In this document: positions 5,264 through 27,394 of the stretch, in pieces
Position numbering within the stretch: the stretch's first letter is position 1
How the letters are laid out: each line of letters starts with the position of its first letter
From: a virus
IMG/VR virus record: IMGVR_UViG_3300020411_003820
Coordinates: 1 to 64,000 of that record
Reading direction: 5' to 3' (one strand)
Length of the DNA: 64,000 nucleotides
Notes under the pieces: model-generated
The model's input: only the letters and a program-made list of their open reading frames with translations
The model's database searches: none
Told to the model about the DNA's origin: nothing
Made by a program: the position numbers and the translations under genes

Positions 5264-5707
5264 CTATTTCCGATTCATTCCTTTCCAAACTTCTGTTGCA
5301 CCGCCCAAAAGCGAGCTAATGTCAACACCCGAATCATTTGGCGCGCCTAAATCTACAGAACCTTGAGGTTGTGGCGCTGCTTCATAATTTGACATGGGGG
5401 TTGTGCCTTCAAACAAATCAACACCATTGTAAGCATCAGAGCTAACCGCTTCTAATAACTTCTTTCTGTGTTCCTTCATTTTTGCACGTGCATCGTCTTG
5501 ACGTTGCTTTCTGTGTTGCATTTCATGCTTTTCGTCAAACAAGCGTTCGCTTCGTTTTTGCGCTTTAGTCTCGGTAACCAGATTACCTTGCATGCCTTTG
5601 GCAACTTCTGAAACAACATTAGACAAGACGCCCTCTTCTATAAGAACTTCGTGAATGCATTCTTTCACCAATGGTTTGATTAATCTTTTTAAATCAGCTT
5701 TTTTCAT
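5264..5707 (-). CDS. Charged, tag-bearing head-region protein, 147 aa
   Basis: A 147-aa hydrophilic protein. The N-terminus MKKADLKRLIKPLVKECIHE continues VLIEEGVLSNVVSEVAKGM and resembles the MKITxxQLKQIIxEE tags found elsewhere in the window; I-x-E sites (IHE, IEE) follow the helix. Residues ~45-90 form a charged coiled-coil-like stretch (QKRSERLFDEKHEMQHRKQR) and the C-terminus is Gly/Pro-rich. It overlaps the preceding large gene by ATGA (5704-5707). Lying just downstream of the prohead protease, it may be a prohead core or cargo protein cut by that protease (inference). I do not recognise a named family. Confidence 0.55.
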   Translation of the reverse strand: MKKADLKRLIKPLVKECIHEVLIEEGVLSNVVSEVAKGMQGNLVTETKAQKRSERLFDEKHEMQHRKQRQDDARAKMKEHRKKLLEAVSSDAYNGVDLFEGTTPMSNYEAAPQPQGSVDLGAPNDSGVDISSLLGGATEVWKGMNRK

Positions 5708-7581
5708 AATTTCCTCTTTTTAATTCCAGCTAAAGTTTGTAAACGCTCAAACGATTCTGTTAGTTCCGAAGGTTCCGGTTTTGATTCTCTTGGTGCTGGA
5801 ATCGCTCTTCTTAGCTTATCAACTGACTGTTTTAGCTCATTTGCAGACGCACCAATACTATCAGGAATCCCCGGTACCGACGCTAGTTTTTCTACACCAC
5901 CTAAAACAGTATCGATCCAGTAGTCACCATCATCTTGTTTCTTATAAATGGCGGCGGATATCCACTCTTCTGGTACATTTTCTATTAATTCTTTTGTAGC
6001 GGAGCCGGCCTTAGCTAAATCTTTAGCAGCCTTTGCAGATTTCATTGTTGTAATCGCGGCTTTCGCGTTCTTAGCAGAACCAAAAGTCTTGATTAGAAGT
6101 CGTCCGCCTTTGAAGCTAGCAGGTCCGACTTTTGCTGCTAATTTTGCTCCGATGGGTCCGAGCTTTCCTAACTTCGATGCTTTTCCAACAACTGGCGCCA
6201 GTGCTATAATATCTAACAATGCAGCTGACATTTTGCCGCGAACCAAATTGAAAACAAGACTACCGAGAGTAGCTGCGCTTGGAATTAAAGTTGCTTCAAA
6301 AGCAGGATTTATGCCCGCTGCAGACACCGTATTCAAGGCTGCTTCAATTCCTAATTCAAGTTTACCGAGAGTGCTGAGTTCTTCTTTATCTTCGCCATCT
6401 TCTGCAGATCGCGCAGTGCCGGTCTCGGTAGGTTCATCAGAAGTATCTTCGTCTTCGCCCGGTGTAGGCTCAGGTTTTGGTGCCGGTGGACTAAATTTAA
6501 CAGTATTTAATTTAGCCCATTTTTTAATCAGCTTTTCAAGTTTTTGATTTACCTCAGAACTTAAATTAAAAGAATTAATCAAATCATTTAATTGTCTTGT
6601 GGTTTCAGGTGAATATGTTCTTGGGGCGCGCTCTGGATCTCCGATTGCCTCCAATACTATGTCGTCTTGTTCGGTAGCTTGAAGCATAAATGACAACAAT
6701 TGACTTATTTGCTCACGACTTAGTGCTTTGGCTAATCCGGAATTCTTTAGCATATTGATTAATGAATCATCATAAACTTCACTGTTAATGCCCGCAATGG
6801 CCATTTCGGGTTCTGGTAGCGTTATTTCACCTTCGTCATCATCTGGGCTTGCTGGCGCTTCAGGTTCAGGCTTTGGTTCCGGTGCTGCCTTCGGCGCGGC
6901 AGGCTCTGAATCACTAGGGGGCATCGGATCCGGCAGCGGTTCTGACTCTGTTGGTTTTTCTTTTTCTTGGTCATACATACTAATAGCTTTAAAATCTTCT
7001 ATATCTAACTCAATCGGCTCTATTCCTTGAGCCTCAAGATCATCAGCAACCTCTGGAACGGTTGCTGCTAGTAGTTGTACATCTATTGGGCGCCCTAATA
7101 ATTTTTCAGCAGCTATAACAACACTGTACGCAAAAACTGCGCCAACTGCATAGTCTTCGTCCGGTACATATCCGCTTGGATGATGTTCCGGGTTGTCGGA
7201 CCATTCCACGTTGTTCCCGGGGGCTCTGTCAATAAAATCTTCTATACGTAACGAAATGGGATGTCCACGTTCATCAAAAAAGGAGAAAAATGTTCTTGGA
7301 CGCCGTGTTAACAACTCTTCTTTATAGCTAGCTAACGAAAGAAAATCACCTTCTTCAACCTTTTTTTGGGCGAAGTCCCGCGCAAGGCGCTCCACATTGC
7401 TTTGAATCCAATCTCTAACTTTCGGATCCAAGACCTTGATGTGTTCGGTCCCGGGCGCTGCATTCGCCGCTGCCAATAGCTCAGCGTGTTCCGAGTCAAA
7501 GGGTTTATCTACTTTAGGCTCTTGTTCTTGTTCTTTTATAAACTTTTGCCAGTTCTCATTTATTTGTTTATAGCTGTTCAC
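5704..7581 (-). CDS. Large tag-bearing protein in scaffold/core position, ~625 aa
   Basis: This is the second gene after the portal-protease group, where T4-type phages usually place core or scaffold genes. The N-terminus contains ENWQKFIKEQEQE, close to the FENWRKxI tags at 18-20 kb, with an I-K-E site. I prefer GTG at 7581 (MNSYKQINENW), which sits nearer to the tag; ATG at 7599 would add six residues and a 32-nt overlap. A long acidic, Pro/Glu-rich linker (~220-265) and a second one (~375-410) separate globular parts. Residues ~415-540 contain hydrophobic and Ala/Gly/Lys-rich helices (SALLDIIALAPVVGKASKLG) that could enter membranes. Possible roles are scaffold or core protein, or ejected internal protein. 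No enzyme motif is visible. Confidence 0.6.
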   Translation of the reverse strand: MNSYKQINENWQKFIKEQEQEPKVDKPFDSEHAELLAAANAAPGTEHIKVLDPKVRDWIQSNVERLARDFAQKKVEEGDFLSLASYKEELLTRRPRTFFSFFDERGHPISLRIEDFIDRAPGNNVEWSDNPEHHPSGYVPDEDYAVGAVFAYSVVIAAEKLLGRPIDVQLLAATVPEVADDLEAQGIEPIELDIEDFKAISMYDQEKEKPTESEPLPDPMPPSDSEPAAPKAAPEPKPEPEAPASPDDDEGEITLPEPEMAIAGINSEVYDDSLINMLKNSGLAKALSREQISQLLSFMLQATEQDDIVLEAIGDPERAPRTYSPETTRQLNDLINSFNLSSEVNQKLEKLIKKWAKLNTVKFSPPAPKPEPTPGEDEDTSDEPTETGTARSAEDGEDKEELSTLGKLELGIEAALNTVSAAGINPAFEATLIPSAATLGSLVFNLVRGKMSAALLDIIALAPVVGKASKLGKLGPIGAKLAAKVGPASFKGGRLLIKTFGSAKNAKAAITTMKSAKAAKDLAKAGSATKELIENVPEEWISAAIYKKQDDGDYWIDTVLGGVEKLASVPGIPDSIGASANELKQSVDKLRRAIPAPRESKPEPSELTESFERLQTLAGIKKRKL

Positions 7582-8176
7582 TGTCCGACAATACCTCATT
7601 CAATAACTCGTTGATGCGCTCTTTTCTGGTGCCTTCGTGTAAGTCTTTAGCTTCACGCATCATGAATGCGCCGGGTGTTGATGGTTCAGAAACAATGTCA
7701 AAGCAGACTAGTTCAAAATCTTCTTGAACGATTGATCTACCGTTTTGCTCTACGACGGAACCAGTACCGCGAGATGAAATACCAATAGCGCAACCACCTT
7801 CAACAAGTGCGCGCAGGGTTTTGCCGGCTGGGGTGTCAAGTACTTGAATCTTGCCCATAACCTTCTTGCCTTCCATCCAGATGGCTGTAACTTTATGTGC
7901 AACATGTTGTAGCGAAACTTCGACTTTATCGGGATGGTCTAACTCGCCTAATGCTCGTCCAGATTCTACAAGTTTAGAATACTTTTGCACTTCTCGACTT
8001 AAAACATTTTCGGTATAAACGCGGCCATTGCCATTTTCAGTTTCGCACATTTGCATAAGACCAGATAAAATCATGCCACCATTGGCAACAAATTTTTTCT
8101 CAGCCTCTGTCAACAAATCTTGACATACGCCACCATCACAAAGTTCATAATATTCTCTGAGTAATTTCTTACCCAT
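7568..8176 (-). CDS. gp21: Prohead core protease, T4 gp21-type (S80 family)
   Basis: A 202-aa serine protease that should mature the prohead. The visible motifs fit the T4 gp21 family: GELDHP with His81, GISSRGTGS with Ser134/135, and CFDIVSEPSTPGA with Asp160. The N-terminal NGRVYTENVL strand is also typical. In T4 the enzyme cuts core and internal proteins after (I/L)-x-E and frees the capsid interior for DNA. Here it lies downstream of the portal and next to tagged proteins that carry such sites. Length is normal for the family. The C-terminus (LNEVLSDSEQL) overlaps the next gene. Confidence 0.9.
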   Translation of the reverse strand: MGKKLLREYYELCDGGVCQDLLTEAEKKFVANGGMILSGLMQMCETENGNGRVYTENVLSREVQKYSKLVESGRALGELDHPDKVEVSLQHVAHKVTAIWMEGKKVMGKIQVLDTPAGKTLRALVEGGCAIGISSRGTGSVVEQNGRSIVQEDFELVCFDIVSEPSTPGAFMMREAKDLHEGTRKERINELLNEVLSDSEQL

Positions 8177-8200
8177 AGCTAAGAACCTTTACAGCAGCGT

Positions 8201-9151: not shown

Positions 9152-9962
9152 TATCGTATAATTCCTTTACAAGTTGCTGTGTTTTAAGTACAGTCATAAT
9201 TACTTTTTGTGCGTCCGTTTCGGTTGAATAGCTTTCTAGCAACCCGACTACTTGCTTTGTTTTTTCAACTATTACATCATCGTCGCCCTCAATGGTAGTT
9301 TCAGATTCTTCTAGTTTTGATTTGAGGCGACCGATCTCTTCATTTAAAAATAGTTTAAGTTCTATTGAATTGTCGGCAAATGAAGATATGTATCTTGTCA
9401 ACAATTCTTTTTGCTCACTCAATAAAACATCACTATATTTTTCATTAAATTTTTGTACAAAAGTAGTGTACACAACATTGTCAATCTCTTGATTATTTTC
9501 TGATTCCTCAACAATATTACTCATGTTTTCAATAATTCTATTTTCTAAAATAACTTTTTCTTTTGGAGAGTTTGTATTAAACATCTTGCTAATTGTGGCC
9601 AATGTTTTATAATTTGGGACAAAGTTATTAAATACAGACGGAGATATTGTTTTGTTAACATCATTAATCATGGCAGTTTGTTCTCCAAATAAACCATCTG
9701 GATCGATCATTCTTTTTGCTAATGCTGATTCCTTTAAAATCTTTTCACTAATTTCTTTATCAATACCTTGATTTTCATACAAAGAGCGATAGCACTCAAG
9801 ATCTTTTTTAAGAAACGAATCTGCAGTAAAGTGCTTTTTAATAAGACCTACAACTTTATGACTTTTTTGTTCATCATTTTTCAAAATAGCATATGTTGCT
9901 TCTTTAATTAGAGCCTCGTAAACAAATGCAGTGTTGCGTTTTTTGTTGTGTTTAGCTTTCAT
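9135..9962 (-). CDS. Helical head-cluster protein, 275 aa
   Basis: A 275-aa, mostly helical and highly charged protein. Its N-terminus KKRNTAFVYEALIKEATYA is a form I recall from hypothetical proteins near the portal gene in marine T4-type phages. The rest contains long amphipathic helices and a possible coiled coil near 205-235 (LFLNEEIGRLKSKLEESETT). It overlaps the portal stop by 11 nt upstream and the 191-aa gene by 17 nt downstream, so it belongs to the same transcription unit. It may be a prohead core or assembly factor; the function is unknown. Confidence 0.6.
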   Translation of the reverse strand: MKAKHNKKRNTAFVYEALIKEATYAILKNDEQKSHKVVGLIKKHFTADSFLKKDLECYRSLYENQGIDKEISEKILKESALAKRMIDPDGLFGEQTAMINDVNKTISPSVFNNFVPNYKTLATISKMFNTNSPKEKVILENRIIENMSNIVEESENNQEIDNVVYTTFVQKFNEKYSDVLLSEQKELLTRYISSFADNSIELKLFLNEEIGRLKSKLEESETTIEGDDDVIVEKTKQVVGLLESYSTETDAQKVIMTVLKTQQLVKELYDNGSES

Positions 9963-11934
9963 CTTTTTGCTCCGTTACCTTTTCTTTAGTCTGCTCAAGA
10001 TCTTCTAGAAGATTCGTGATAGATTTGTTGATTTCCAACATTTTGATCTCTTCTTTTTGCTCTCTCAATGAATAAATAGGCTCATTATCTTGATAAACAC
10101 CTTCAGTGATGCCGCGACCAAGCGATCTAAGCTCTGGATAACCTAGGTTATTGGTCCTCATGGTATTCATTTCGGGAGTTCCTATGCTTGATAAATGTCT
10201 ATTTCTTGCGCCGGCTGGTCTTGAATCTGTGCGTTGTGGGTAATAAACTTTCCCTCTAGCTCCCGGGGTCAGGCGCGGAGCATTTCTAGTTCCTGGTGGT
10301 GCGGCTAAGAGTGCAGATTCATCACCTTCAGGGGGTGTGTCTGCAGCAGCGTCTGGTTGGGCATCACCTTCTCCGCCGGGCGGTAAGCCACCCTCACCAC
10401 CAGCAGCGTCACCTCCTAACCCGCCTAAGTCGCCCCCAAGACCACCGCCTAATCCGCCGGCTTCACCGGCTTGCGCTTCGGCAACTGCTTGGAGAGCAGC
10501 ATCTTGTTTGCGATCGTAGTACATCTCACGCTGACAACGCACAAAGTCTTCGTGCGACAAGTTAAAGATGTGTTCAGATACCCAACGACGAGAGAAATAG
10601 CCTTCTGTGGCGGAGCCTGCAATATCAAATTTATTCTTCCAGTGTTCGAGTTCTTGAAGCTCTGCAATTTTTGATGGATTGTTTAGAGCCAGTTTGAAAT
10701 TAATAAGATCATCTCCACGAAAACCAAGAGTGTAAAGATGAATGATTCCGATCTTTTCGAGTTCATGTATAACTGTCCTTTGTAATCTTTGTACGGTCCG
10801 GGCAAAACGGATATCTTTTTGTGCCAACGTTGTCTTATCTTCCGTTGCGCCTTCACCCATAGACAGATATGACTGGGGAATTTTTAATGCGGAAAAAAGC
10901 TTGTCACGCAAATATTTAATATCATCAATTTCTGTTGTATTTGAGCCTCCAGCCAAGTTTACAATATCTGTAGCAGATCCTTGACGCACAGGAATATAAT
11001 AATCTTCTTCAATTGATAGCGGGTTATATCTAAGATCAACACGACCAGTATCTTTGTTTACGATTGAGTGACGCTTTAATTGGGTGACTATCTTTTGCAT
11101 GTATTGTTCAACATCTTGTGGTGGAATAGCACCGACATCAATCTTAAAGACTCGACGCTCCGAAGATCTAACAACCCTGTAGGCCATCATAGCATCTTCT
11201 GCTAATGTTAGTTGTCTCCATATACGACGAGCAGGTTCTAGAACAGAGGTACCATATGGTGAATACTTATCATTTCCAAGAACCCGAAAATGTGCAACTT
11301 GCCAATTTTCAAATGTCATTCCAGCTGAGTTCCATTGATACTGAATATAGTTTGGGTTTGTTGTATCTAAACCTTCAAGACGTTCAATCTCTTGCAGCGG
11401 TAAAGCTATGGTAGACTGAATCCCTAACTTCTCATCAATATCAAGATATAGCATGAAGTCGCCATACTTACATAAAGTACGGCACCAGCCAAACAAATTG
11501 TATTCAAGGTTTAGCACATTATGATACAGTGTTTCTAAGACAGCTTTTATTTCTTCATTTGAGCATTTGATATTTAACATCGGACGTAATGCCGAAAACG
11601 TTGTCATCTCATCTGCATAAATATCAAGTGACGATGCAATCTCTGGCATATATTCCATCTGGTCAAAATCTACATAGCGTTCGCCTCTTTGTTGGTTACC
11701 AATGGCATTAGCCGCAATTGTATCTAACGGGTTATACGTTTGCTTTTTAAATTGTTGACCCGATGCTGATTTAAAACGTGTCGAAAACTTGTCTAAATGT
11801 TGGCGCCTTATTCGGCGTCCAGATTGAGAACGATAATTTACAATTGGTCCAGAAAAAAGCCTTGTTAATGACTTAAACAAAGTTGATTGATCATTCGCTG
11901 GGTTTTTTCCTTTTCTTGGGTTTTTAGGTGCCAT
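9952..11934 (-). CDS. gp20: Portal vertex protein, T4 gp20-type
   Basis: A 660-aa portal protein. Dodecameric portals of this family form the head vertex through which DNA is packaged. Gp20-like features include RYVDFDQMEYMPEIASSLDIYADE (cited here as residues ~89-112), YKYGDFMLYLDI-type strands, SPYGTSVLEPARRIWRQL, the SERRVFKIDVG strand and GEGATEDKTTLAQKDIRFAR. It lies just downstream of the large terminase, as in many T4-type phages. Unusual is a long low-complexity C-terminal part (~485-560) made of Gly, Pro, Ala, Asp and Glu (GLGGGLGGDLGGLGG), followed by a charged terminal helix ending EQTKEKVTEQKDES. A minus-strand TATAAATGG lies about 20 nt before ATG and is a weak late-promoter candidate. 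Confidence 0.9.
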   Translation of the reverse strand: MAPKNPRKGKNPANDQSTLFKSLTRLFSGPIVNYRSQSGRRIRRQHLDKFSTRFKSASGQQFKKQTYNPLDTIAANAIGNQQRGERYVDFDQMEYMPEIASSLDIYADEMTTFSALRPMLNIKCSNEEIKAVLETLYHNVLNLEYNLFGWCRTLCKYGDFMLYLDIDEKLGIQSTIALPLQEIERLEGLDTTNPNYIQYQWNSAGMTFENWQVAHFRVLGNDKYSPYGTSVLEPARRIWRQLTLAEDAMMAYRVVRSSERRVFKIDVGAIPPQDVEQYMQKIVTQLKRHSIVNKDTGRVDLRYNPLSIEEDYYIPVRQGSATDIVNLAGGSNTTEIDDIKYLRDKLFSALKIPQSYLSMGEGATEDKTTLAQKDIRFARTVQRLQRTVIHELEKIGIIHLYTLGFRGDDLINFKLALNNPSKIAELQELEHWKNKFDIAGSATEGYFSRRWVSEHIFNLSHEDFVRCQREMYYDRKQDAALQAVAEAQAGEAGGLGGGLGGDLGGLGGDAAGGEGGLPPGGEGDAQPDAAADTPPEGDESALLAAPPGTRNAPRLTPGARGKVYYPQRTDSRPAGARNRHLSSIGTPEMNTMRTNNLGYPELRSLGRGITEGVYQDNEPIYSLREQKEEIKMLEINKSITNLLEDLEQTKEKVTEQKDES

Positions 11935-11942: not shown

Positions 11943-13526
11943 TCACTTTATAATCCATTTATATTGATTGTATAAACTTTCTGCGTCTGACATTTTATCA
12001 AGAGCGCTGTCTTGTTTATATCCGGTTTGTCCTTTAACTGTTGTATCGAATGTTGTACGAGTTGTTATTATAGCATCCACAAAAGCTTTCTTGTAGTTTA
12101 AATCTCTTTGATTTGTTTGCAAAGCGGTATCCCTAACCCAGCAAGCAATTGCAAGTGCCATAACTAAATCATCGTTGTATCCTTTTAGTGCTTGTGGTTT
12201 TCCGTTTGTCCAAATAAATGTTCTCAATTCATTTGCCAATCGGGACGAATATGTAGTAATTAGTTTGTTTCTTATAAACTCTTCTAATTTAGCAACAACC
12301 AAAGGTCGAGTCTTAGATGAAGTCGTAAAACCGGCAACCGCAGATGTTCTGTGTTCTGCCATGTGTTGCTCGATGTATTCGTGCGTAGACTTAACTGAAT
12401 AGTAAATGTTGGGGTAAGCGTAGTCCACCAATTTATCCAACACAGTATAACCAATACTGTTATTTTCGATAACAACCATAGCATTGCCAAATTCTCGGCC
12501 AATCTGATTTAGCATGTTAGCAAAAAGATCCGGGGTGGGTTTACCCTGATATTCTCCAACTACTTGTAGTGTCTCCAGTTTTATAATATGAAATGTAGAA
12601 TAGTCCGCACCATCTCCCCTCGCAACATCTGCAACTAAAAGATACGAATGTGAAGGATCAAATTCTTCCCAAATCCAAAAGTTTCTATCAAAAGCTGTCC
12701 TATACTTTGGCTCTGCAATGTTAGACATGATCCACTCAAGCGCATCCGGATCTATAACGGTTTCACCAGATGTATTGAAATTACATTCTAACTCTTGAGC
12801 AATTTGGCGACGTGACATGTTTCTGGTTTCTTTATTGAACCATTCTTGATCACGCTCGGGATGAACGTCCCACATTAACGTTGTAAGTTTAAAATTATTT
12901 TCTTTTGTCTCGGCACCAACACATGTTTTATGAAACCAATTACCAACGCCATTTGGTGTAGAAATAGCGATACAGCGCCCACCAGTCGACAATGTTGGGT
13001 ACAGCCCTGTCCACAACTCTTCTAAGCCATCAATGTGCGCGGCCTCATCCAACACCAACAAAGATAGCGCTTCGGAACGTCCAGCGTCACCGGATGTTGA
13101 TGCAGCTTTAATCGTAGAGCCGTTAGACAACTCAAATGATGTCCTATTATCAGTTGATATAGAAGCAATACGAATCCAGTCTGGAAGATTCTTCATGATG
13201 CTCTTAACCTTTCTGACAAGGTTGCCTGCAGTTTCAAACTTAGTAGCCATGACAAGTATTGACTTGTCGCGATGGAACAACATCATCCATACAATATAGC
13301 CAGCGGTTAAGGTAGAGATACCAAGCTGACGGCCTTTATTAATCACGTTAAATCGATAATCATTGAAATCACTTAATAAGTCATCTTGATAGTCAAAGGT
13401 ATTAAAAAGAATTAACCCATGCATTGGATGAGATATGCGAGCATAAGTTTTAAGAAAATACGATGGATCTTTTCCGCACTTAACTACTTCTTTTAATATC
13501 TCTTTCTTGGTAAGTTTAAAAGCCAT
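11943..13526 (-). CDS. gp17: Terminase large subunit, T4 gp17-type
   Basis: A 527-aa packaging motor with ATPase and nuclease. Counting from ATG at 13526, the N-terminal ATPase shows the Walker A-like GRQLGIST (65-72), Walker B LLVLDEAAH (156-164) and a coupling-type STPNG (189-193). The C-terminal RNase H-fold nuclease shows ADVARGDG with Asp300, VVIENNS with Glu354 and GYNDDLVMAL with Asp452/453, the three acidic residues needed for DNA cutting. A GTG two codons upstream (13532) is an alternative start. It overlaps the upstream gene by 11 nt and is followed after 8 nt by the portal gene. Confidence 0.93.
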   Translation of the reverse strand: MAFKLTKKEILKEVVKCGKDPSYFLKTYARISHPMHGLILFNTFDYQDDLLSDFNDYRFNVINKGRQLGISTLTAGYIVWMMLFHRDKSILVMATKFETAGNLVRKVKSIMKNLPDWIRIASISTDNRTSFELSNGSTIKAASTSGDAGRSEALSLLVLDEAAHIDGLEELWTGLYPTLSTGGRCIAISTPNGVGNWFHKTCVGAETKENNFKLTTLMWDVHPERDQEWFNKETRNMSRRQIAQELECNFNTSGETVIDPDALEWIMSNIAEPKYRTAFDRNFWIWEEFDPSHSYLLVADVARGDGADYSTFHIIKLETLQVVGEYQGKPTPDLFANMLNQIGREFGNAMVVIENNSIGYTVLDKLVDYAYPNIYYSVKSTHEYIEQHMAEHRTSAVAGFTTSSKTRPLVVAKLEEFIRNKLITTYSSRLANELRTFIWTNGKPQALKGYNDDLVMALAIACWVRDTALQTNQRDLNYKKAFVDAIITTRTTFDTTVKGQTGYKQDSALDKMSDAESLYNQYKWIIK

Positions 13527-14001
13527 GCTCACTCAGAATTTTAAGAATCATTTCTCTAATTGCCTTCCTGCGGGGATCTCCGGGCGAGAGTATAACTGGG
13601 CGATCAGGATCGGGACCTTCTTCATCTGGGCAGTCTGCCGGCATGTACTGTGGATAGTTTTGTGACACAATGTTGTTAATAACCTCCATTGCTTCTTGTG
13701 GGGGCAATTCACCTAAAAGGTTGGCAATCTGCGTTTCAATATCCACTTCTTCTTCGTCAGGAAAGGGCATTGTTTCCAAACTAGATAATGGCCGCGGCTT
13801 CATTGGCTTTGGCATTGAAGCAGTATCGCCGCCGCGTCCATCTTCTGGAGGTCGGCATCTCTCAGGATATTGCTCGCAGTATTTTTTATCGCCCAATATG
13901 CGTCTTAAAAGATCTTGCGCTGCAGGAGTTTCAGTGAGTCCTTCTTCTTTGATGTATTCTTCTATAATAATTCTATAGATTCGATCACGTGAGAGTTCCA
14001 T
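13516..14001 (-). CDS. Protein upstream of terminase, 161 aa; small-terminase candidate
   Basis: I start this gene at ATG 14001, which has a good SD (GGAGAG, 6 nt away) and lies 1 nt past the upstream stop. A longer frame to 14154 would begin at TTG and overlap the neighbour by 150 nt. The 161-aa product has an N-terminal helix MELSRDRIYRIIIEEYIKEE similar to the MKIT-type tags, with I-I-E and I-K-E sites. A Cys-containing Pro/Asp-rich middle (CEQYPERCRPPEDGRGG) follows, then a helical domain (IETQIANLLGELPPQEAMEV) and a terminal helix RRKAIREMILKILSEHGF. Its position before gp17 fits a small terminase, but the tag fits a head cargo protein. Undecided. Confidence 0.5.
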   Translation of the reverse strand: MELSRDRIYRIIIEEYIKEEGLTETPAAQDLLRRILGDKKYCEQYPERCRPPEDGRGGDTASMPKPMKPRPLSSLETMPFPDEEEVDIETQIANLLGELPPQEAMEVINNIVSQNYPQYMPADCPDEEGPDPDRPVILSPGDPRRKAIREMILKILSEHGF

Positions 14002-14002: not shown

Positions 14003-14557
14003 TTACTCTCCAGAATTTTTAGGTCGAGAGTCGTTGTCTGGGCGGGTGCCACCAGAGCCATTCCATCCACCTTGTTCAAGAAACTTTCTAAATTTGTCAT
14101 CCATTGTGTCTGAAGATGGTTCATTGATCGATTCAGACTCTGTGATGCCTCCAATTTTATAATGCATCTTGGCAGTAACCCACGTGCGCACTCTTGAAGA
14201 ATTTTCTACAAAAATATCAGATTCGCCTTGTGGTGTAAGAGTCACTGATTTTCCGGTAATTTTCTTATACTCTTTCTTTAAAAACGAAGCAATATCAGAA
14301 AGCCGTTGTTCTACTTCGGATTCAAAGCCGTTAGCATAAACTTCTCTAAGTTGCAATTCAGAATGATAACCAAGGCACATCATATTGCCATAAAAACTAA
14401 CATTGAATCCGTCCATAACTCTCTTGTCAATAAGTGGTCGACCCTCTTCTCTTTTGAGTCCTGCTTCGACTGCTTCTCCGTCTTCGTTCAAAGCCCCGTC
14501 GTATGCGTTAGCTGCGGCTTGCGACAAGCCTTGTATAATTTCGTAAACAGTCGCCAT
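14003..14557 (-). CDS. Conserved-type phage protein, 184 aa
   Basis: A 184-aa protein, start MATVYEIIQGLSQAAANAYD. Visible stretches KREEGRPLIDKRVMDGFNV, FYGNMMCLGYHSELQLREVY and IASFLKKEYKKITGKSVTL are of a type I recall from hypothetical proteins in marine T4-type phages close to the terminase. A mixed alpha/beta domain is likely (residues ~35-140) with a disordered Gly/Asp/Ser tail (WNGSGGTRPDNDSRP). The SD GGAGAT precedes ATG. It overlaps the upstream gene by 1 nt (TAATG type). A role in head or neck assembly is plausible from context only. Confidence 0.6.
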   Translation of the reverse strand: MATVYEIIQGLSQAAANAYDGALNEDGEAVEAGLKREEGRPLIDKRVMDGFNVSFYGNMMCLGYHSELQLREVYANGFESEVEQRLSDIASFLKKEYKKITGKSVTLTPQGESDIFVENSSRVRTWVTAKMHYKIGGITESESINEPSSDTMDDKFRKFLEQGGWNGSGGTRPDNDSRPKNSGE

Positions 14558-14883
14558 TAGTGATCTCCTTTCATCTTGTTGTACTGTAAATAGTGTTTGA
14601 CCGAGGAAAGGTAATCCGCGGCTTTGGTGATTTTAGCTTGCACCCAAGCTTCTAATTCTTCTCCGTCGTGAATCATGTGCTCAAGTTCTGCAGCGTATTC
14701 TGACGCACGATGTAATTGTGACTTGGCCATATCTGATTCATCATGAGAATGATGGTGTTGCATGGGTAAATCATGATGTATCTGTGGCTCTTGAGTATCC
14801 ATATGCATAGGTTCGCCACAGCTAGCTTCATGCTGCAATGCTTCTAAAATCGCTTGTTTTATATCATTTTTCGTTATCTTCAT
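14557..14883 (-). CDS. Tag-bearing His-rich helical protein, 108 aa
   Basis: A 108-aa protein. The N-terminus MKITKNDIKQAILEALQHEA is a clear member of the MKITxxQLKQII tag group, with an I-L-E site after the helix, as expected for prohead protease cleavage. A His/Met/Asp-rich spacer follows (HHDLPMQHHHSHDESDM; residues ~35-52) and may bind metal. The C-terminal helical domain (EYAAELEHMIHDGEELEAWV, then QAKITKAADYLSSVKHYL) is a form I recall from small conserved proteins in many marine T4-type phages. A head cargo or core protein is my inference. Confidence 0.6.
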   Translation of the reverse strand: MKITKNDIKQAILEALQHEASCGEPMHMDTQEPQIHHDLPMQHHHSHDESDMAKSQLHRASEYAAELEHMIHDGEELEAWVQAKITKAADYLSSVKHYLQYNKMKGDH

Positions 14884-18061: not shown

Positions 18062-18439
18062 TCATGTTGTTAAACCATATTCGATAGCGCGGCGTTCGGG
18101 AGGCATATTCGAAGCCTCATCTAAATCAAACATAACCAGATCAGGGCGATCGCCATCAATAAAATGATTAAATAATTTTAAAAACTCAGGAAAGTCATCC
18201 CATTCCGATATTGCCACAACATCCTGTTCAGAATTTTGCTGGATTGCTTGAATTTTCGTTGAATCGTCGCCCGGCTTAGTAATATCTTCAATGTACATCT
18301 GGACATCGCGTCCTTGAAATTTAGGGCTGTTGGTTATGTCTTCAAGTTTCTGATTTACCTTGTCAATCATCGCAGCAAAATTTAAATCTTCTTCTTCTTC
18401 TTTTATATGCTTTCGCCAATTTTCAAATATTAGTTTCAT
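18062..18439 (-). CDS. FENWRK-tagged protein, 125 aa
   Basis: A 125-aa protein with the tag MKLIFENWRKHIKEEEEDLN; the I-K-E at residues 12-14 is a candidate prohead protease site. The rest is a small acidic domain (MIDKVNQKLEDITNSPKFQG, then DVQMYIEDITKPGDDSTKIQ and VAISEWDDFPEFLKLFNHFI) with mixed alpha/beta character. The tag DNA is identical over 20 bp to the tags of two nearby genes. The SD AGGA lies 7 nt upstream. It follows the 78-aa gene after 1 nt. Probable head-packaged cargo (inference); the mature function is unknown. Confidence 0.55.
   Translation of the reverse strand: MKLIFENWRKHIKEEEEDLNFAAMIDKVNQKLEDITNSPKFQGRDVQMYIEDITKPGDDSTKIQAIQQNSEQDVVAISEWDDFPEFLKLFNHFIDGDRPDLVMFDLDEASNMPPERRAIEYGLTT
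18410..18429 (-). repeat. 20-bp tag-coding repeat, copy 1
   Basis: Plus-strand CTTTCGCCAATTTTCAAATA encodes the FENWRK core of the 125-aa protein. Identical copies lie at 19289-19308 and 19998-20017. Confidence 0.85.
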
Positions 18440-18440: not shown

Positions 18441-18677
18441 TTATTGTCCTGCTCTCTTCATCGCGTCAGCAATGCGTAAAGATGAATTTTCAACAACCTT
18501 AATAACAGACTGCGGAATCTCTCCCATTTCAAAAAGATTCTCATTTTCCAAATGACCAATGATAGCGTCACGGATAGTTCTAGAAAGAGACAGCCGATCC
18601 GTGAAAGCATCAGCTTGTGGCAGCTCTTCCAGCTCTTCTTTAATAATCTGTTTAAGTTGTTGCTTTGTAATCTTCAT
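18441..18677 (-). CDS. MKIT-tagged protein, 78 aa
   Basis: A 78-aa protein that is largely tag: MKITKQQLKQIIKEELEELP, with I-K-E at 12-14. After the tag it has only ~60 residues, forming helices (DRLSLSRTIRDAIIGHLENE and SVIKVVENSSLRIADAMKRA). It starts in an ATGA overlap with the 214-aa gene. The SD is AGGAAT. Removal at the first I-x-E would leave a small helical protein, comparable in size to T4 internal proteins (inference). Confidence 0.55.
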   Translation of the reverse strand: MKITKQQLKQIIKEELEELPQADAFTDRLSLSRTIRDAIIGHLENENLFEMGEIPQSVIKVVENSSLRIADAMKRAGQ

Positions 18678-19318
18678 TTTGTATTCCTATATACTTGGTT
18701 AAATAGTTGTTGAATTTCTTGGTTTCCCGCATGTGCTATATCTATAGCAACTTTTAACTGATCTAAGTCTTTCCGTTTCTCATCGGCGGGCAATTGACTA
18801 TAATCAACAAACAAGCTTGGGTTGCTATCTTTTTGCCATGAATTGTGTTTCATCCATATTTTATGGAATTTGCTAGCCAACGCTTCAATATCGCCGGCAG
18901 AAGTTATCGGAAGTTCTCCAACTGCTTTGGCATAATCTGCCGCTGGTGCACCATTTAATTTATTAGCAAGCGATGGCTCAATTTTATCAGCCTCTTGGTT
19001 GATATTTTGGTGTACAACGCCATCAATAACTTCGATACCCTCATAACCTTTTAAGTTTTCTAATGGTGGGTTATTAGGAATCGGCTTAAATCTTGGCTTA
19101 TCTCCATTCTCTTTTCTGTAACCTTCAAGCCATTTAGCGTGCATTTTATCGGTTAAATCTTTCGCTAATTGAGCGTCAAACATGTCAGCATACGGCTCAT
19201 TTCGAAGATCTTCAGGACTCATATACTCTTCACCAGTATCAATGTCAGCAACAGCACGACCGGGTTCGTATTCTGCTTCAGTTATGTACTTTCGCCAATT
19301 TTCAAATAGCTTCTTCAT
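18674..19318 (-). CDS. FENWRK-tagged protein, 214 aa
   Basis: A 214-aa protein with the tag MKKLFENWRKYITEAEYEPG; I-T-E-A at 12-15 matches closely the I-A-E-A cut site of the T4 IPIII capsid-targeting peptide. The body is hydrophilic and mixed alpha/beta (YADMFDAQLAKDLTDKMHAK, KPRFKPIPNNPPLENLKG, IASKFHKIWMKHNSW-like stretches) and ends in a helical segment (QLKVAIDIAHAGNQEIQQLF). No known enzyme motif is seen. The leader 19319-19341 is a copy of the end of the FtsZ-like gene, evidence of tandem duplication. Likely head cargo (inference). Confidence 0.55.
   Translation of the reverse strand: MKKLFENWRKYITEAEYEPGRAVADIDTGEEYMSPEDLRNEPYADMFDAQLAKDLTDKMHAKWLEGYRKENGDKPRFKPIPNNPPLENLKGYEGIEVIDGVVHQNINQEADKIEPSLANKLNGAPAADYAKAVGELPITSAGDIEALASKFHKIWMKHNSWQKDSNPSLFVDYSQLPADEKRKDLDQLKVAIDIAHAGNQEIQQLFNQVYRNTK
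19289..19308 (-). repeat. 20-bp tag-coding repeat, copy 2
   Basis: Identical to 18410-18429 and 19998-20017; encodes the FENWRK core of the 214-aa protein. The neighbouring leader 19319-19341 matches 20028-20050 with two differences over 23 nt. Confidence 0.85.
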
Positions 19319-19337
19319 GTTGCTAATCCATTCATAC

Positions 19338-20027
19338 TTAGTTATCTTCTTGTCCTTGAGACATATCTTTAAGTTGTTGCATTAAAGATTCGTATACATG
19401 AGTTACTGCCTCATCCAATTCCGCTGCAAGTGCAGCAGTGCTGTCTCCATCGTCAGCTTCTATTGCTTTAAGTAACCGCGATGTAATTTCACGACACTGT
19501 TCATCTTCATTGACTGCATCATTTACAATCTTCATCAGTGTTTCTGCTTGTTTTTCGCTCATATCAGTCTGGGCTACAATTTGACTAATGCTATCGCGAA
19601 TACTATTTTGTGCAACTTTGAGCGGATCTTCTTTTTTGCTAAATTTATTAAACACATTTTTCATCCAAGATGGCATCTTAAGTTTTGTTTTAAGAGCCAA
19701 CCAAGCGAAGCCACCTGCTAACATTAAAGGTATAGCGCTAGTTGAAAGAAAAAATGCAATCCCTGTTGCAGTTCCAGCATTTAACGCTGCTATATTTAGT
19801 GCCGCATATGCTGTTGTAGCAGAAACAGCCACCAAAGCAGACCATGGACCAACTGGCTGAATAGAGCCGCGGGCTCCTTCTGGACCGATATCAAACTCAA
19901 TTGCAGACACCTCTTTAATAAGCTGCTTTTTTTGTGATTGTTTTTGTTCGTGAATTTCCCAAAAAACATCAACAGCATCTTTGCTGTTGTTTTCAAACTT
20001 TCGCCAATTTTCAAATATTAATTTCAT
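19338..20027 (-). CDS. FENWRK-tagged membrane-type protein, 229 aa
   Basis: I start at ATG 20027, in an ATGA overlap with the FtsZ-like gene; the frame is open further upstream but only inside that gene. The tag is MKLIFENWRKFENNSKDAVD, the one member without I-x-E directly after the helix; an I-H-E occurs further on (~residue 25). Residues ~75-125 hold two hydrophobic segments (SALVAVSATTAYAALNIAAL and GIAFFLSTSAIPLMLAGGFA), then a basic stretch and a helical acidic C-terminal domain. A packaged, membrane-active protein is possible (inference). Confidence 0.55.
   Translation of the reverse strand: MKLIFENWRKFENNSKDAVDVFWEIHEQKQSQKKQLIKEVSAIEFDIGPEGARGSIQPVGPWSALVAVSATTAYAALNIAALNAGTATGIAFFLSTSAIPLMLAGGFAWLALKTKLKMPSWMKNVFNKFSKKEDPLKVAQNSIRDSISQIVAQTDMSEKQAETLMKIVNDAVNEDEQCREITSRLLKAIEADDGDSTAALAAELDEAVTHVYESLMQQLKDMSQGQEDN
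19998..20017 (-). repeat. 20-bp tag-coding repeat, copy 3
   Basis: Identical to 18410-18429 and 19289-19308; encodes the FENWRK core of the membrane-type protein downstream of the FtsZ-like gene. Confidence 0.85.
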
Positions 20028-21163
20028 GTTGCCAATCCGTTCATACTTAGTATCGCAATCAATCCGGGCACATTCTTTCTGACATAAACGCCAGAGAAAA
20101 GTGTCTCGCATCGACCGCCGACATAAGCGATTGCCGACTCAATGTTCTTGCTGACTTTTGGATCAGCCACCATCTCTTCTGACACAACCAACACTAACGA
20201 ACCTGCAGCAGCCTTACCCTTGGGTGGAGGACACGCAGAACGATTCATGCAGTTATGAAGGATCACCGATCCAAGCTTTCCGGTATTTGGATCTTTTATC
20301 ATGGTTGAGCCTATGAAGGCTCTGCCGTCATTACCCAAGCATGTTTCCAAATCCTTACTGTCGAAAGATTGGATCGGTGAATCCTCAGTGGAGAGTTTAA
20401 GCACTTGGGCAAGCGACTTAGCAAATTGCGTGTTGGCTACCGGGTACATACCGAGCATGCCAATTCTACCACGCAGTAATCTAGTTGATCGTTCGTTATC
20501 AAGAATAATATGCGGATGCTTTGTGACGTCATTTGCCAGCGTCAACGCATTACGAGCGATCGTTGGGTTAAGGTTTTCTTGTGCAGTTGGCCATGAAACT
20601 ATATAAACGACCTTACCACTTGACTGCACAGAGCGCATGTAACGCTCAAAGACAGGATGGAGAGCGGTAACAGAACTACCGGTGCCACCGCCACCGCCAG
20701 CAAGGACGAATAACCAATCCACTTTACCGAGTTTGATGCGCAAAGCATCTTCAATAATTGCACCATTTTGACTTAATACCTCTTTTCCATAGTCTACGTT
20801 TTTGCCGATTCCATCAGAATCGGGAATAAGGACAACGTGATCCTCTTCGACATTCTTTGGAATGTCTTTACCTGTTGTATTAACAAGCAGCGTTTTGTTG
20901 AAACCAAGCTCAATGAAAGCGTTGGCCATTTTGTTGCCTCCACCGCCAACCCCAACAATACCGATGTTAAGCGAAGAAGGTGCTGTGTTTTCGGGAAGCA
21001 GATCTTCATCAGAGTATTCCATCTGGAGACCGAAATCTTCAACCATGCCGAAATCTTCGGCGTCCACTTGTTCGTGGTAGCTATCCTTTTCCTGCACAAA
21101 TGCGGGTGGGGGTTCTGCGGGAGGCAGAAAATCAAATTCGTTGTTATCGTTTTCGTCTGACAT
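20024..21163 (-). CDS. FtsZ/tubulin-like GTPase, 379 aa
   Basis: A 379-aa protein with tubulin/FtsZ superfamily motifs. After a ~63-residue acidic Pro-rich N-terminal extension come the nucleotide loop GVGGGGNKMANAF (71-83), the tubulin signature AGGGGGTGSS (155-164), a T6-like ILDNERS (220-226) and a T7-like DSKDLETCLGNDGRAFIG (268-285). The T7 acidic residues Asp268 and Asp271 suggest that hydrolysis is possible. The C-terminal domain ends at GLAT with no long tail. Phage tubulins are known as PhuZ in nucleus-forming jumbo phages and TubZ in plasmid-like phages; this one reads closer to FtsZ. It is co-transcribed with tagged proteins. A role in positioning capsids or DNA, or in disturbing host division, is inference. 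Confidence 0.85.
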   Translation of the reverse strand: MSDENDNNEFDFLPPAEPPPAFVQEKDSYHEQVDAEDFGMVEDFGLQMEYSDEDLLPENTAPSSLNIGIVGVGGGGNKMANAFIELGFNKTLLVNTTGKDIPKNVEEDHVVLIPDSDGIGKNVDYGKEVLSQNGAIIEDALRIKLGKVDWLFVLAGGGGGTGSSVTALHPVFERYMRSVQSSGKVVYIVSWPTAQENLNPTIARNALTLANDVTKHPHIILDNERSTRLLRGRIGMLGMYPVANTQFAKSLAQVLKLSTEDSPIQSFDSKDLETCLGNDGRAFIGSTMIKDPNTGKLGSVILHNCMNRSACPPPKGKAAAGSLVLVVSEEMVADPKVSKNIESAIAYVGGRCETLFSGVYVRKNVPGLIAILSMNGLAT

Positions 21164-21188: not shown

Positions 21189-21803
21189 TTACTTTATATT
21201 GCGCAGCGCATCTTCGAGTTCTTCTCTAATAAACTGTTTAAGTTTCTTTTCGTTAATTGAAGCTAACAACTCATCTTCTTCAGTACCTTGTTTTAATTGA
21301 ATTCTTCTTTTAGCTTTTCTTACCATGCGATCGTACTCTTTTTTACCTCCAGTAGTTTGATATGCCCTTTCTCTATCACGCGTGAGCTGAACTTGCTTGT
21401 CGGACAAATCTGCATCTGCTTGTTTTTTCTCGGCATCACGACGCTGTAGACGATCACTTTCTCTACCGGCTGTGTGTTCAACACTAAAATCTTCTAATGC
21501 GTTAGCAAGATGCTTACGTTGCTTTTGTACTTTACTCTGATAGTTTGGATCGTTTATGCGATCGGCGGTTATCTGCTTTAACTCGTTAGATACTTTTGGC
21601 CAAAATTCGTTGAACCATTTTTCGTTGTCTTCTTCACTCCAAGTTGACATAATTCTGTTTCTTTCTTGACGAGCTTCTTTTTCGTCTTTAGGAGCAAACG
21701 CAAAGTCTATCAACTTAAACAATGTACTAAGATAGCCCTCTTGAAGTGTAGATTTTACTTCTTCTTCAATAATCTGCTTGAGTTGTGATTGTGTAATTTT
21801 CAT
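21189..21803 (-). CDS. MKIT-tagged basic coiled protein, 204 aa
   Basis: A 204-aa protein with the tag MKITQSQLKQIIEEEVKSTL; I-E-E and L-Q-E-G are candidate protease sites. Residues ~30-60 (FKLIDFAFAPKDEKEARQER) and ~90-175 are helical and strongly charged, with many Arg, Lys and Gln. The C-terminus carries a second tag-like segment, EKKLKQFIREELEDALRNIK, so the protein has a tag-like helix at both ends. It lies between the Mre11-Rad50 fusion (11 nt) and the FtsZ-like gene. A DNA-associated head internal protein is possible (inference). Confidence 0.55.
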   Translation of the reverse strand: MKITQSQLKQIIEEEVKSTLQEGYLSTLFKLIDFAFAPKDEKEARQERNRIMSTWSEEDNEKWFNEFWPKVSNELKQITADRINDPNYQSKVQKQRKHLANALEDFSVEHTAGRESDRLQRRDAEKKQADADLSDKQVQLTRDRERAYQTTGGKKEYDRMVRKAKRRIQLKQGTEEDELLASINEKKLKQFIREELEDALRNIK

Positions 21804-24922: not shown

Positions 24923-24932
24923 TATTCCTCCG

Positions 24933-25028: not shown

Positions 25029-25048
25029 AAGTGCCCCCTTATACATAT

Positions 25049-25077
25049 ACTATATCACCTTAAGGCAGCGCTGTCAA
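25049..25077 (-). promoter_or_regulatory. Consensus sigma70-type promoter
   Basis: On the minus strand: -35 TTGACA (25077-25072), a 17-nt spacer, -10 TATAGT (25054-25049). It lies in the 181-nt gap before the small hydrophobic frame and the Mre11-Rad50 gene. The rest of this gap (25078-25103) shows no feature. Probably used early by host RNA polymerase. Confidence 0.85.
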
Positions 25078-25103
25078 GTATTTCTTTAAAAGAAATTAGC
25101 TTT

Positions 25104-26033
25104 TTACAATGATGTTATGGTCATTGACGCCCAATCTATCTCAGCAAAATATGTATAGCTTCCGTCGCCTTCAATTATTCGAGTGTCTGTCCAAGCCAGA
25201 ATTCCATCAAGATAAATATTGACTGTGACCTCATTACCGCCGTAGAAGTCAGGTGTTGAGCCTGTGTAGTCGTGAACCACAACAGTGTATACCCCACCAG
25301 TAACTGGATCTGCTATGTTGATGTTCTCTGGTCCCGTGCCCGGGATGTCATCTAAATCCAGAATGGGATTGTCTTCTGTGTAACCTGAAATACCCCAATC
25401 CATAGGAAACAAAAACTGTGCAGACTCAGTACAGTTTGAGTAGTAACAGTCTGTTCTAGTTTCAAGTGTTCCGCCGGGTGCAAGGAGGTGTAGATCCATG
25501 TCGTCTTGAAATTCAGACCAGAACATTTCAACCCATAGATTTTGATCAGGCACTGCTTCCAATGTAGTTTCACAAGGATCTGAAACTAAACCAGATTCAT
25601 TGGTCACTATAAGTCTTGCTGTGTATTCTCCTGCTAGCACAGGAGTGAAAGGACCGCGATTGGCGCCACCAAAGGGCATTGTCACTGTTGATCCTTCGGG
25701 TGCTGATATTAGCTGCCAGTCGTATTGTTCTATTCTTTCACCGGCCGGGTCAAACGAGTCGTCGCCAATCCAAGTTGCGACCTCAAAGGGCGGTGAAATA
25801 GGATCGGGTGTGACATCACATATTGCAACAGGCACAGTGGGATCTGGTTCCTCTTCGGGTTCATCCTCTGGCTGCTCTTCGGGTTCATCAACACCCGTAT
25901 CTATCGAAGGTAACTCTTCAGCATATGCTGTATCAATTTCAGGGAGTTCTGAACCTGGATCAACTGAACCAACGCCGCTAAGTTTGTAGTCTGAACACGA
26001 CAGACTAAGAAGTGTAAACAGTAAGATTCTCAT
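25104..26033 (-). CDS. Deltaproteobacterial-style lipoprotein with PKD-like and DLHLL domains
   Basis: A 309-aa predicted lipoprotein. MRILLFTLLSLSC is a short signal with Cys13 as the likely lipidated residue (SLSC, a slightly atypical lipobox). An acidic Pro/Glu linker with DTG motifs follows (~30-68), then an Ig/PKD-like domain (CDVTPDPISPPFEVATW ... AGEYTARLIVTNESG, ~70-160). The C-terminal domain (~165-309) has DDMDLHLLAPGG, DCYYSNC, DWG, LDLDDIPGTGPENINI and VYTVVVHDY. This order matches a secreted-protein family I know mainly from Myxococcota and Bradymonadota genomes. The SD is GGAGG. Probably gained from a host; a surface role such as superinfection exclusion is speculation. Confidence 0.75.
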   Translation of the reverse strand: MRILLFTLLSLSCSDYKLSGVGSVDPGSELPEIDTAYAEELPSIDTGVDEPEEQPEDEPEEEPDPTVPVAICDVTPDPISPPFEVATWIGDDSFDPAGERIEQYDWQLISAPEGSTVTMPFGGANRGPFTPVLAGEYTARLIVTNESGLVSDPCETTLEAVPDQNLWVEMFWSEFQDDMDLHLLAPGGTLETRTDCYYSNCTESAQFLFPMDWGISGYTEDNPILDLDDIPGTGPENINIADPVTGGVYTVVVHDYTGSTPDFYGGNEVTVNIYLDGILAWTDTRIIEGDGSYTYFAEIDWASMTITSL

Positions 26034-26044
26034 AAAGCCTCCAT

Positions 26045-26842
26045 TTATTTGAGAGTATTTTTTGTTTCTTGGGCTTTTTTAAATGCTGAAAAGTCGGCAT
26101 TTAATAATAAAATTGGTATTTGTTTACCGCTGGCATCGGCTGTTTGTCCAATCTTTTTAAATTTACCGTAACCAAACGAACCAAAATCTTGTATTTGTCT
26201 GTCCATGATTGAATTTAATTTTTCAGCATCCATCATACCATAATATTTCATCTTACCATCGATTCCGTATTTGCCTGTCGAAAAATCAGTGTAGGAAGAA
26301 TCAATATTGTCATATGGAACATAATAAAAAACGCCACCCGTGGCCGGATCTCGAAGAGGCTGCCCATTATCGCCAGTTGCCATTACAAGATCTGCTTGGT
26401 ATTTGCTTACAAAATTATCTGTGTCGCTAACCCGCTTCTTCTCGCCACTGTCAACTCCTAAGTCGGCGGTGCCGCGGTCAAGAGCACGCTGAACAAGTTT
26501 TTGCAACTCTTTATCTTTTAGCGCTTCAACAGCATCTCTAGCGTTTTCGGCATTTGCTAACTCTTGAGCGGCACCTGGTGTAACCCCTACATCATTAAGT
26601 ACCTGTAAATCATTACCAATTTGACTCCCAAAGGCTGCAAGCGCAATAGGAAGAATAATCTTCATGTTGCTGCCAATCGCAGACTTGAGAGTATCTAAAA
26701 CACTTTTTTCTAAAATTAAAATTTGCTCTTCGGACAAATCAAGTTGCATTTCAGTAATAACTGATCTGATTTCTTCTATAACAATCTTTTCAGATACTTC
26801 TTCTAATATAAGCTGTTTTAATTTTGATTCTGCTATGATCAT
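26045..26842 (-). CDS. MKIT-like-tagged protein, 265 aa
   Basis: A 265-aa protein with a diverged tag, MIIAESKLKQLILEEVSEKI, and I-L-E at 12-14. Helices follow (EEIRSVITEMQLDLSEEQIL), then a hydrophobic segment (MKIILPIALAAFGSQIG, ~59-75), a helical charged part (AQELANAENARDAVEALKDK) and a mixed C-terminal domain (~140-265) with VSKYQADLVMATGDNGQPLR and FGSFGYGKFKKIGQ. No family is recognised. It lies 6 nt after the 181-aa tagged gene and 11 nt before the lipoprotein gene. Predicted head cargo (inference). Confidence 0.5.
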   Translation of the reverse strand: MIIAESKLKQLILEEVSEKIVIEEIRSVITEMQLDLSEEQILILEKSVLDTLKSAIGSNMKIILPIALAAFGSQIGNDLQVLNDVGVTPGAAQELANAENARDAVEALKDKELQKLVQRALDRGTADLGVDSGEKKRVSDTDNFVSKYQADLVMATGDNGQPLRDPATGGVFYYVPYDNIDSSYTDFSTGKYGIDGKMKYYGMMDAEKLNSIMDRQIQDFGSFGYGKFKKIGQTADASGKQIPILLLNADFSAFKKAQETKNTLK

Positions 26843-26848
26843 AATTTA

Positions 26849-27394
26849 TTACCGTGATACCAATTGAGGTGGTACATTTTTTGTATTCATCGAAAACTGC
26901 AACCGCTGTCCGCTTTGTGTATCAAAGACAAATGTTGTTTCCCCGCTTTTCGCGTCCGTATTTTGATTTTGAAGTCCATATTTGTTGAATACGTCCATAC
27001 GTTTAAATTTATCATCGCCAGCGGCTTCAAGTTCTGCAGCTATTTTAGATAAAGAATCCTTGGCACTGTCGACATCTGTAGGTAAACTTTTGCTAGACTT
27101 TTTATCACCCATGTCAAACCTTGGATCATCATCCATATTAAATTTAGAATCGTCAAAGTCCGCGGACATTGAAGACAGCTCTTTATCAAGAGCGGCCCAC
27201 TTATCAGCCATGGCAGGATTAGGCGCTAAAACTCCAGCAGCAGTTGTAACCAACATGCCTGCTGAAACCATTTTTTTAACCCAATTTGGCATTGCTTCTT
27301 GAAGTTGTATTTCTGTAAGCTGTATGTCGCTTGATAAAGCAGCTTCGACCTCTTCTCTGATAATCTGTTTTAATTGTGATTCAGTAATCTTCAT
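26849..27394 (-). CDS. MKIT-tagged protein, 181 aa
   Basis: A 181-aa protein with the tag MKITESQLKQIIREEVEAAL and I-R-E at 12-14. A tag-like echo (TEIQLQEAMPNWVKKM) precedes a hydrophobic segment (VSAGMLVTTAAGVLAPNPAMA, residues ~44-63) that ends like a signal peptide cut site. The rest is acidic and helical (ALDKELSSMSADFDDSKFNM, then SAKDSLSKIAAELEAAGDDK) with a terminal beta part (GETTFVFDTQSGQRLQFSM). The SD is GGAGAG. It lies 9 nt after the primase stop. Export or membrane insertion after delivery is possible (inference). Confidence 0.55.
   Translation of the reverse strand: MKITESQLKQIIREEVEAALSSDIQLTEIQLQEAMPNWVKKMVSAGMLVTTAAGVLAPNPAMADKWAALDKELSSMSADFDDSKFNMDDDPRFDMGDKKSSKSLPTDVDSAKDSLSKIAAELEAAGDDKFKRMDVFNKYGLQNQNTDAKSGETTFVFDTQSGQRLQFSMNTKNVPPQLVSR

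Follow-up and report, generated by a model that had tools for sequence, protein, structure and literature searches.

Why do many otherwise unrelated proteins, encoded near one another in a single phage, begin with one of two recurring peptides? The window analyzed here, a stretch of 64,000 nucleotides (positions 1 to 64,000 of IMG/VR record IMGVR_UViG_3300020411_003820), comes from a virus record of 84,283 bases that represents a fragment of a T4-type phage. A series of its minus-strand genes starts with an N-terminal peptide of one of two kinds, termed here tag A (consensus KLxFENWRKFLNE) and tag B (consensus MKITKSQLKQIIKEEL). An earlier note on this DNA proposed that these peptides are T4-like targeting tags, cut at (I/L)-x-E by a protease that the phage encodes, and this core reading was supported in every sequence test that we ran. 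Tags A and B very probably constitute an expanded capsid-targeting cargo system of the T4 type with two tag classes; the tag principle itself was known from phage T4, where it operates on a small scale, and is here greatly expanded.

Two N-terminal tags recur on unrelated proteins

Both tags were present at every gene for which the earlier note had named them. In an all-against-all comparison of the 53 minus-strand N-termini of the window, 14 pairs scored 35 or higher, the best being 21189/26849, 18441/26849, 5704/18674, and 18062/18674 (genes are named by their lower coordinate). Random internal 24-mers taken from the same proteins gave a mean of 0.25 such pairs and a maximum of 2 in 60 trials, so the similarity of the tags is far beyond chance. 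Synonymous codons are shared between the window tags at a frequency of 0.53, compared to 0.48 expected; a match so near expectation indicates that the similarity is kept at the peptide level and does not reflect a recent DNA repeat. The genes predicted to encode tagged cargo are listed below; 5704 was assigned by comparing its slot across relatives and all others by N-terminus comparison (a slash within a peptide marks a cleavage site, predicted for this phage and its relatives).

5704 to 7581, minus strand: cargo in the variable slot behind the protease gene, 625 amino acids, GTG start
14557 to 14883, minus strand: cargo with tag B (MKITKNDIKQAILEA)
18062 to 18439, minus strand: cargo with tag A (MKLIFENWRKHIKE)
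18441 to 18677, minus strand: cargo with tag B (MKITKQQLKQIIKEE)
18674 to 19318, minus strand: cargo with tag A (MKKLFENWRKYITE/A)
19338 to 20027, minus strand: cargo with tag A (MKLIFENWRKF), without I/L-x-E at the tag end
21189 to 21803, minus strand: cargo with tag B (MKITQSQLKQIIEEEVKSTLQE/G)
26045 to 26842, minus strand: cargo with a variant of tag B (MIIAESKLKQLILEE)
26849 to 27394, minus strand: cargo with tag B (MKITESQLKQIIREE), LQE/A further on

Related loci were collected with the protease of this phage as a query (422 loci, 80 of which were kept), and a strict DNA pattern for tag B added at least 118 further stretches. The tag-B profile was trained on the protease loci, and hence partly on three of the 14 related genome records in which it was later scored; in these records, a score of 20 or higher was reached at 87 of 17,749 ATG codons versus 2 of 795,803 non-start codons. 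Counting both tags, there are 5 to 23 tagged open reading frames (ORFs) per genome record. The tags extend to a divergent lineage, G013 (a 242-kb record with 25 tag-B starts in the start-codon scan), where they have a lineage-specific consensus. Altogether, about 635 tagged ORFs fall into about 399 clusters by their bodies, 339 of them singletons, and the short N-terminal peptide is thereby common to otherwise unrelated proteins. The type A pattern is loose: a stricter form is passed by 104 of 118 matches and failed by 14, such as the ALKNWKAILIVLL membrane proteins.

Recognizable bodies include L,D-transpeptidase, RNase T-type exonuclease, AAA_33 P-loop kinase-like proteins, and a HAD-like DUF2608 protein, and a pooled scan of the cargo added a single protein-kinase match and a single amidase match. 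The cargo bodies of the window itself gave no confident Pfam or PHROG match. These enzyme-like predicted domains suit putative effectors acting early in the host. The earlier note had further remarked that several of the tagged proteins carry hydrophobic segments fitting membrane action, which our data do not support. Among the window cargo, only 19338 has a clear segment (residues 90-108, mean hydropathy over 19 residues of 1.75), 5704 is borderline (1.60), and just 2.7% of 634 tagged proteins reach 1.6.

The tags resemble the T4 targeting sequence and adjoin predicted protease sites

The head module of the window is of the T4 type.

7568 to 8176, minus strand: prohead (head maturation) protease of the T4 gp21 type (phrog_207, E = 5.7e-55)
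9952 to 11934, minus strand: portal
11943 to 13532, minus strand: terminase

The profile match and the gene order terminase-portal-protease-capsid confirm the gp21-type protease that the earlier note had recognized, and such a protease is encoded in the relatives as well as in the window phage. The record that contains the window is a fragment and gave no match to a capsid gene.

In T4, the internal proteins IPII and IPIII begin with MKTYQEFIAE/A, as the earlier note had stated for IPIII, and IPI begins with MKTFKEF (read from NC_000866). In the T4 capsid-targeting sequence (CTS), targeting depends mainly on residues 4 and 7, and processing on residues 8 and 10 (PMC9026906). The same spacing occurs among the most conserved positions of both tags, as W-x-x-F-L-x-E in tag A and L8-x-x-I11-I12-x-E14 in tag B. 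Both fit the T4-determinant pattern hydrophobic-x-x-hydrophobic-[IL]-x-E, in an alignment made post hoc and not blind.

The earlier note had placed an I/L-x-E triplet after the tag helix, around residues 12-15. A triplet is indeed found there, but in tag B it lies within the conserved motif, at residues 12-14 (I12 in 97% and E14 in 98%), and is nearly invariant; a second [LI]-x-E peaks at E21-E22. Over residues 17-32 of the tag-B proteins, E stands at +2 from L or I in 263 of 873 instances (30%), compared to 8.5% in the bodies. Tag A is closed by [LIV]-x-E, with the E present in 78%. The position of (I/L)-x-E at or after the tag is shared with other predicted head substrates. The protease has a putative site of its own, QDLLTE/AEKKF, near its N-terminus, where LLTE is conserved in relatives; their common predicted site is QDLLTE/A. 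The capsid proteins of relatives share a predicted site, QAKELLRE/SSSMA, where T4-type maturation is expected. The scaffold, encoded directly upstream of the capsid gene, contains 3.1-4.3 [LI]xE per 100 amino acids, against a mean of 1.2 and a 95th percentile of 2.5, as expected for a putative core protein chopped by the protease.

Two further genes had been regarded by the earlier note as weak forms of tag B.

5264 to 5707, minus strand: conserved prohead-region protein, 147 amino acids (78 relatives)
13516 to 14001, minus strand: conserved protein adjoining the terminase gene; its tag B has drifted (MELSRDRIYRIIIEEYIKEEG), and its start was set according to its relatives

The N-terminus of 5264 (MKKsDLKxLIKPLVKECIHEVLIEEGLLS, with a conserved LIEE/G) does resemble tag B, but the protein is conserved in the head region, and in nearly every locus its relatives follow either the protease gene or the cargo slot; 5264 is a probable core component and not tagged cargo. 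Likewise, the drifted tag of 13516 stood, but the gene is a conserved one, whose relatives begin MKISQSELKRIIVEEYIKEEG, MNISTQKLKQIIIEEYVKEEG, and similar and move its start to 14001. The protease gene and the relatives of 5264 are separated by a slot, which many phages leave empty. In other phages it is occupied by unrelated proteins, 145 to 1048 residues long and nearly always starting with an A-like or B-like tag; in the window, the occupant is 5704.

Tags accompany the protease within one phage clade

Among 17 large contigs picked by the tag alone, 11 carry the protease. The remaining six were considered as counter-examples and rejected, the capsid gene being absent from all six too. Contigs G021 and G026 are cut off within the portal genes or immediately past them and do not reach the protease locus; G024 stops within the tubulin gene; G022 and G023 stop in tagged genes shortly beyond the primase; and tail genes but no packaging gene were seen on G027. 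Every tag-bearing contig that retains the head region has the protease. Tags common in phages that lack a prohead protease, the observation named beforehand as speaking against the proposal, were looked for and not found within the one clade compared. The tags are markers of one large T4-type clade: other genes of this clade are present in 113 of 123 tag-bearing loci, including 56 of 56 loci of at least 9 kb.

In bacterial and archaeal genomes totalling 257 Gb, the tag-B pattern was found on five contigs, of which the two large ones encode the protease and therefore look like phage sequences binned with cells. Contigs NHDW01000006.1 and PBIO01000025.1 (L310, L313-L315, L311) have many tag-B genes together with the T4-type protease, are filed in Methylococcaceae and Halobacteriovorax metagenome-assembled genomes, and are probably binned phage.

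Tag exchange, a shared upstream element, and cargo modules

Seven bodies are joined to tag A in one phage but to tag B in a second (E = 1e-46 to 1e-10), a natural exchange showing that a tag is transferable between bodies. The set includes the body of window gene 18441, which occurs with a tag-A-type N-terminus in locus L055. In loci L136 and L021, two modules occur in reversed order, one set after tag A and the other after tag B.

A 22-bp element directly precedes the start codon of 17 tag-B and 13 tag-A genes across loci. It is conserved across loci and occurs twice in the window.

19320 to 19341, minus strand: 22-bp element CTAAGTATGAATGGATTAGCAA, abutting the start of 18674
20029 to 20050, minus strand: 22-bp element CTAAGTATGAATGGATTAGCAA with 2 mismatches, abutting the start of 19338

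Since the element precedes both tag classes, tags A and B belong to one exchange or expression scheme, in which the element may serve as a promoter or translation start region, or as a joint where cargo is exchanged by recombination. In each of 16 distinct cases, [LIMV]-x-E stands before a cargo module starting with GYYSKGKCV or GLExxTPEN, and we read these joints as polyprotein cut points.

Proposed role of the tags and alternative explanations

Targeting and trimming of the tagged proteins, as judged from their sequences, are well supported. By analogy with T4, the most likely use of the tags is that cargo is loaded into the forming capsid, trimmed, and injected with the DNA. The amphipathic N-terminal helix would bind the prohead core during head assembly, most likely the scaffold or 5264, the latter being a candidate receptor with an N-terminus that itself looks like tag B. 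Such binding would draw any tag-carrying protein into the prohead, where the protease (7568-8176) would remove the tag by a cut following [I/L/V]-x-E, just as it would cleave the scaffold, itself, and the capsid protein. Cargo freed in this way inside the head would enter the host together with the packaged DNA and could act at once, for example on host defences, nucleic acid, or the cell wall. Each phage would carry a fast-changing set of 5-23 cargo proteins, swapped as cassettes in which a 5' element, a tag, and a body travel together, with some cargo made as polyproteins and cut into modules. In a broader form, which we regard as reasonably likely, the capsid would serve this whole marine T4-type clade as a vehicle for delivering many effectors: two interchangeable, core-mimicking signals would load up to about two dozen different, rapidly swapped effectors per phage, some of them protease-cut polyproteins, amounting to hundreds of new injected protein families in all.

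Several points weigh against this account. All carriers belong to one clade, so the co-occurrence of tag and protease counts as a single phylogenetic event and not as an independent test. In about a third of the tag-B proteins, no second [LI]xE comes after that of the tag itself; the L-x-E at residues 20-22 continues the amphipathic helix and could in part reflect helix periodicity. Gene 19338 lacks a site at the tag end, as the earlier note had said, with LIKE occurring further on. A few tags are internal or C-terminal, and most cargo bodies have no recognizable function. We infer the binding partner, cleavage, and the roles of the cargo, and, from T4, its packaging and injection.

The tagged proteins might instead be core or structural parts, targeted and trimmed alike, that help assembly or stay in the capsid and are not delivered. 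The tag-B-like N-termini of the conserved head-region proteins 5264 and 13516 would suit such a role, as would the scaffold-like LAGIK tail of 5704, and in T4, gp21 cuts the core proteins gp67 and gp68 (PMC5694885). However, most bodies occur in one or a few phages (339 of 399 clusters are singletons), they include enzymes (L,D-transpeptidase, RNase T-type exonuclease, AAA_33, HAD-like) unlike essential parts, and the slot behind the protease gene is often empty, which makes structural parts an unlikely explanation. Delivery of cargo is also preferred to targeting of some other structure, such as a tubulin-based spindle or replication compartment, a membrane, or a host complex, with the protease link being coincidental. 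A tubulin/FtsZ-family gene does lie inside the tagged cluster in the window and several relatives, but G028 combines 13 tagged genes and a complete head region with no tubulin match; moreover, such targeting would give no account of the T4-CTS pattern, of the slot next to the protease gene, or of the [LI]xE signature, and we consider this possibility very improbable.

An effect at the DNA level, in which a mobile or recombining 5' element (a promoter, translation start, or homing target) happens to encode a common N-terminus, would agree with the 22-bp element abutting 30 tagged starts and with the synonymous codons of the tags overall, which match at 0.60 versus 0.44 expected. Yet the element is absent from most tags, codon identity is far below 1 and near expectation in the window, and two different peptides, both ending in [LIV]xE, follow the same element. 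Tags with their own consensus in the divergent G013 lineage also speak against it, as does their confinement to in-frame starts, with just 2 high-scoring non-start positions. This explanation is scarcely credible, and capsid targeting of cargo remains the preferred reading.

Proteins injected by phages are a main route of counter-defence, yet their fast evolution makes them hard to recognize. With an N-terminal signature, hundreds of candidate injected proteins can be listed from uncultured phages by sequence alone, their mature ends predicted, and new packaging tags and anti-defence proteins chosen. The internal-protein trick of T4 may be one instance of a much wider strategy.

Comparison with known systems

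The internal proteins of T4 are injected and inhibit distinct GmrSD restriction enzymes (PMC12373910). Like IPI, IPII, IPIII, and Alt, the proteins described here have a short N-terminal tag, unrelated bodies, a gp21-type protease, and a repertoire that varies between phages. Whereas T4 has three internal proteins plus Alt, there are 5-23 cargo genes per record here, with two tag classes, of which tag A is close in form to that of T4 and tag B is a longer aliphatic helix. Modular polyprotein cargo and a cargo slot directly behind the protease gene, in an uncultured, mostly marine clade, are further differences. In phage P1, the N-terminal 30 residues of DarB suffice to bring a reporter into the capsid (PMC9024508). 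The P1 Dar system resembles this one in its N-terminal packaging signal and several co-packaged defence proteins, but its N-termini have no consensus (PMC9024508), whereas hundreds of proteins here have one of two. In phages of the phiKZ/SPN3US type, many head proteins are cut after Glu by a diverged prohead protease, and the propeptides have been proposed to act in targeting (PMC5694885, PMC9026906); these are mostly longer than 100 residues and mostly mutually different, in contrast to the 14-22 residues and strong consensus of the present tags.

The best cultured match is Flavobacterium phage vB_FspM_immuto (terminase 46.5%, protease 45%). In and beside its primase-to-terminase stretch are at least three B-like N-termini resembling MKKSxLxxIIKEEL (MKKSQLRQIIKEAL, MKKSELVKLIKEEL, MKKSQLREIIRKEL) and three of a further type (FDLKKFLVENKLT...LLKE), which differ in letters from those of the window as a shorter B-like form and a third type. 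We found no virion proteomics of immuto in the literature, and this phage is a natural system for it. A tblastn search with the tags in 50,697 cultured phage records gave nothing convincing, which is weak evidence, since the search also failed to pick up the related short tags of immuto. No occurrence of MKITK in a phage context, of KQIIKEE, or of FENWRK was found in the papers searched. A domain of the RYD(V/K)..PSAYASGALVKCRK type occurs on tagged proteins of several phages, including immuto, with differing tags (L319 (immuto) 1185-1655; L197:12318-13025; L169:2425-2991).

Individual tagged genes and their neighbors

Tag A of 5704 (NENWQKFIKE) occupies residues 8-17 (DNA 7531-7560). The C-terminus of this protein, ERLQTLAGIKKRKL (LAGIKKRKL), resembles the scaffold C-terminal RMRRLAGIK, and ends of the LAGIK type otherwise belong to the scaffold, 5704 being the exception. 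The possibility that 5704 is itself the scaffold was rejected: in relatives the scaffold gene is the one directly upstream of the capsid gene, and the slot of 5704 holds unrelated bodies. The body of 14557 contains a MAKSQLHRASEYAAELEHMI..WVQAKI module that is also found in tagged cargo polyproteins of relatives. A structure model of 18674 (mean pLDDT 71) has the tag helix at residues 2-14 followed by a disordered linker at 14-23; fold comparison with this model gave no significant match, and a weak RyR-like match of the protein (E = 0.036) was below the cut-off. The model of 19338 (pLDDT 46) was too poor for use. The relative of 26045 in G015, 37% identical, is tagged too. Gene 21189 has a further tag-like stretch at its C-terminus (INEKKLKQFIREELEDAL, window 21220-21272, minus strand), and a tag-B-like helix at a protein C-terminus is also seen at L093:4972-5511; no enrichment of C-terminal tags in general was found.

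The tubulin/FtsZ-family GTPase gene inside the tagged cluster (20024-21163, minus strand; Pfam Tubulin, E = 4.6e-9) has no match among the 50,697 cultured phage records, and copies 87-96% identical to it are present in several close relatives. Elsewhere on the minus strand, Hsp20-like and FKBP-like chaperone genes, judged by sequence appearance, lie at 28421-28906 and 29012-29620, and a single protein of 4112 residues is encoded among the tail genes (44995-57333). A small lysine/arginine-rich protein resembling ribosomal protein bS21 is encoded at 5023-5262 (minus strand), and in the related Microcystis phage Mel-JY01 a gene annotated as RpsU lies close to the equivalent position.

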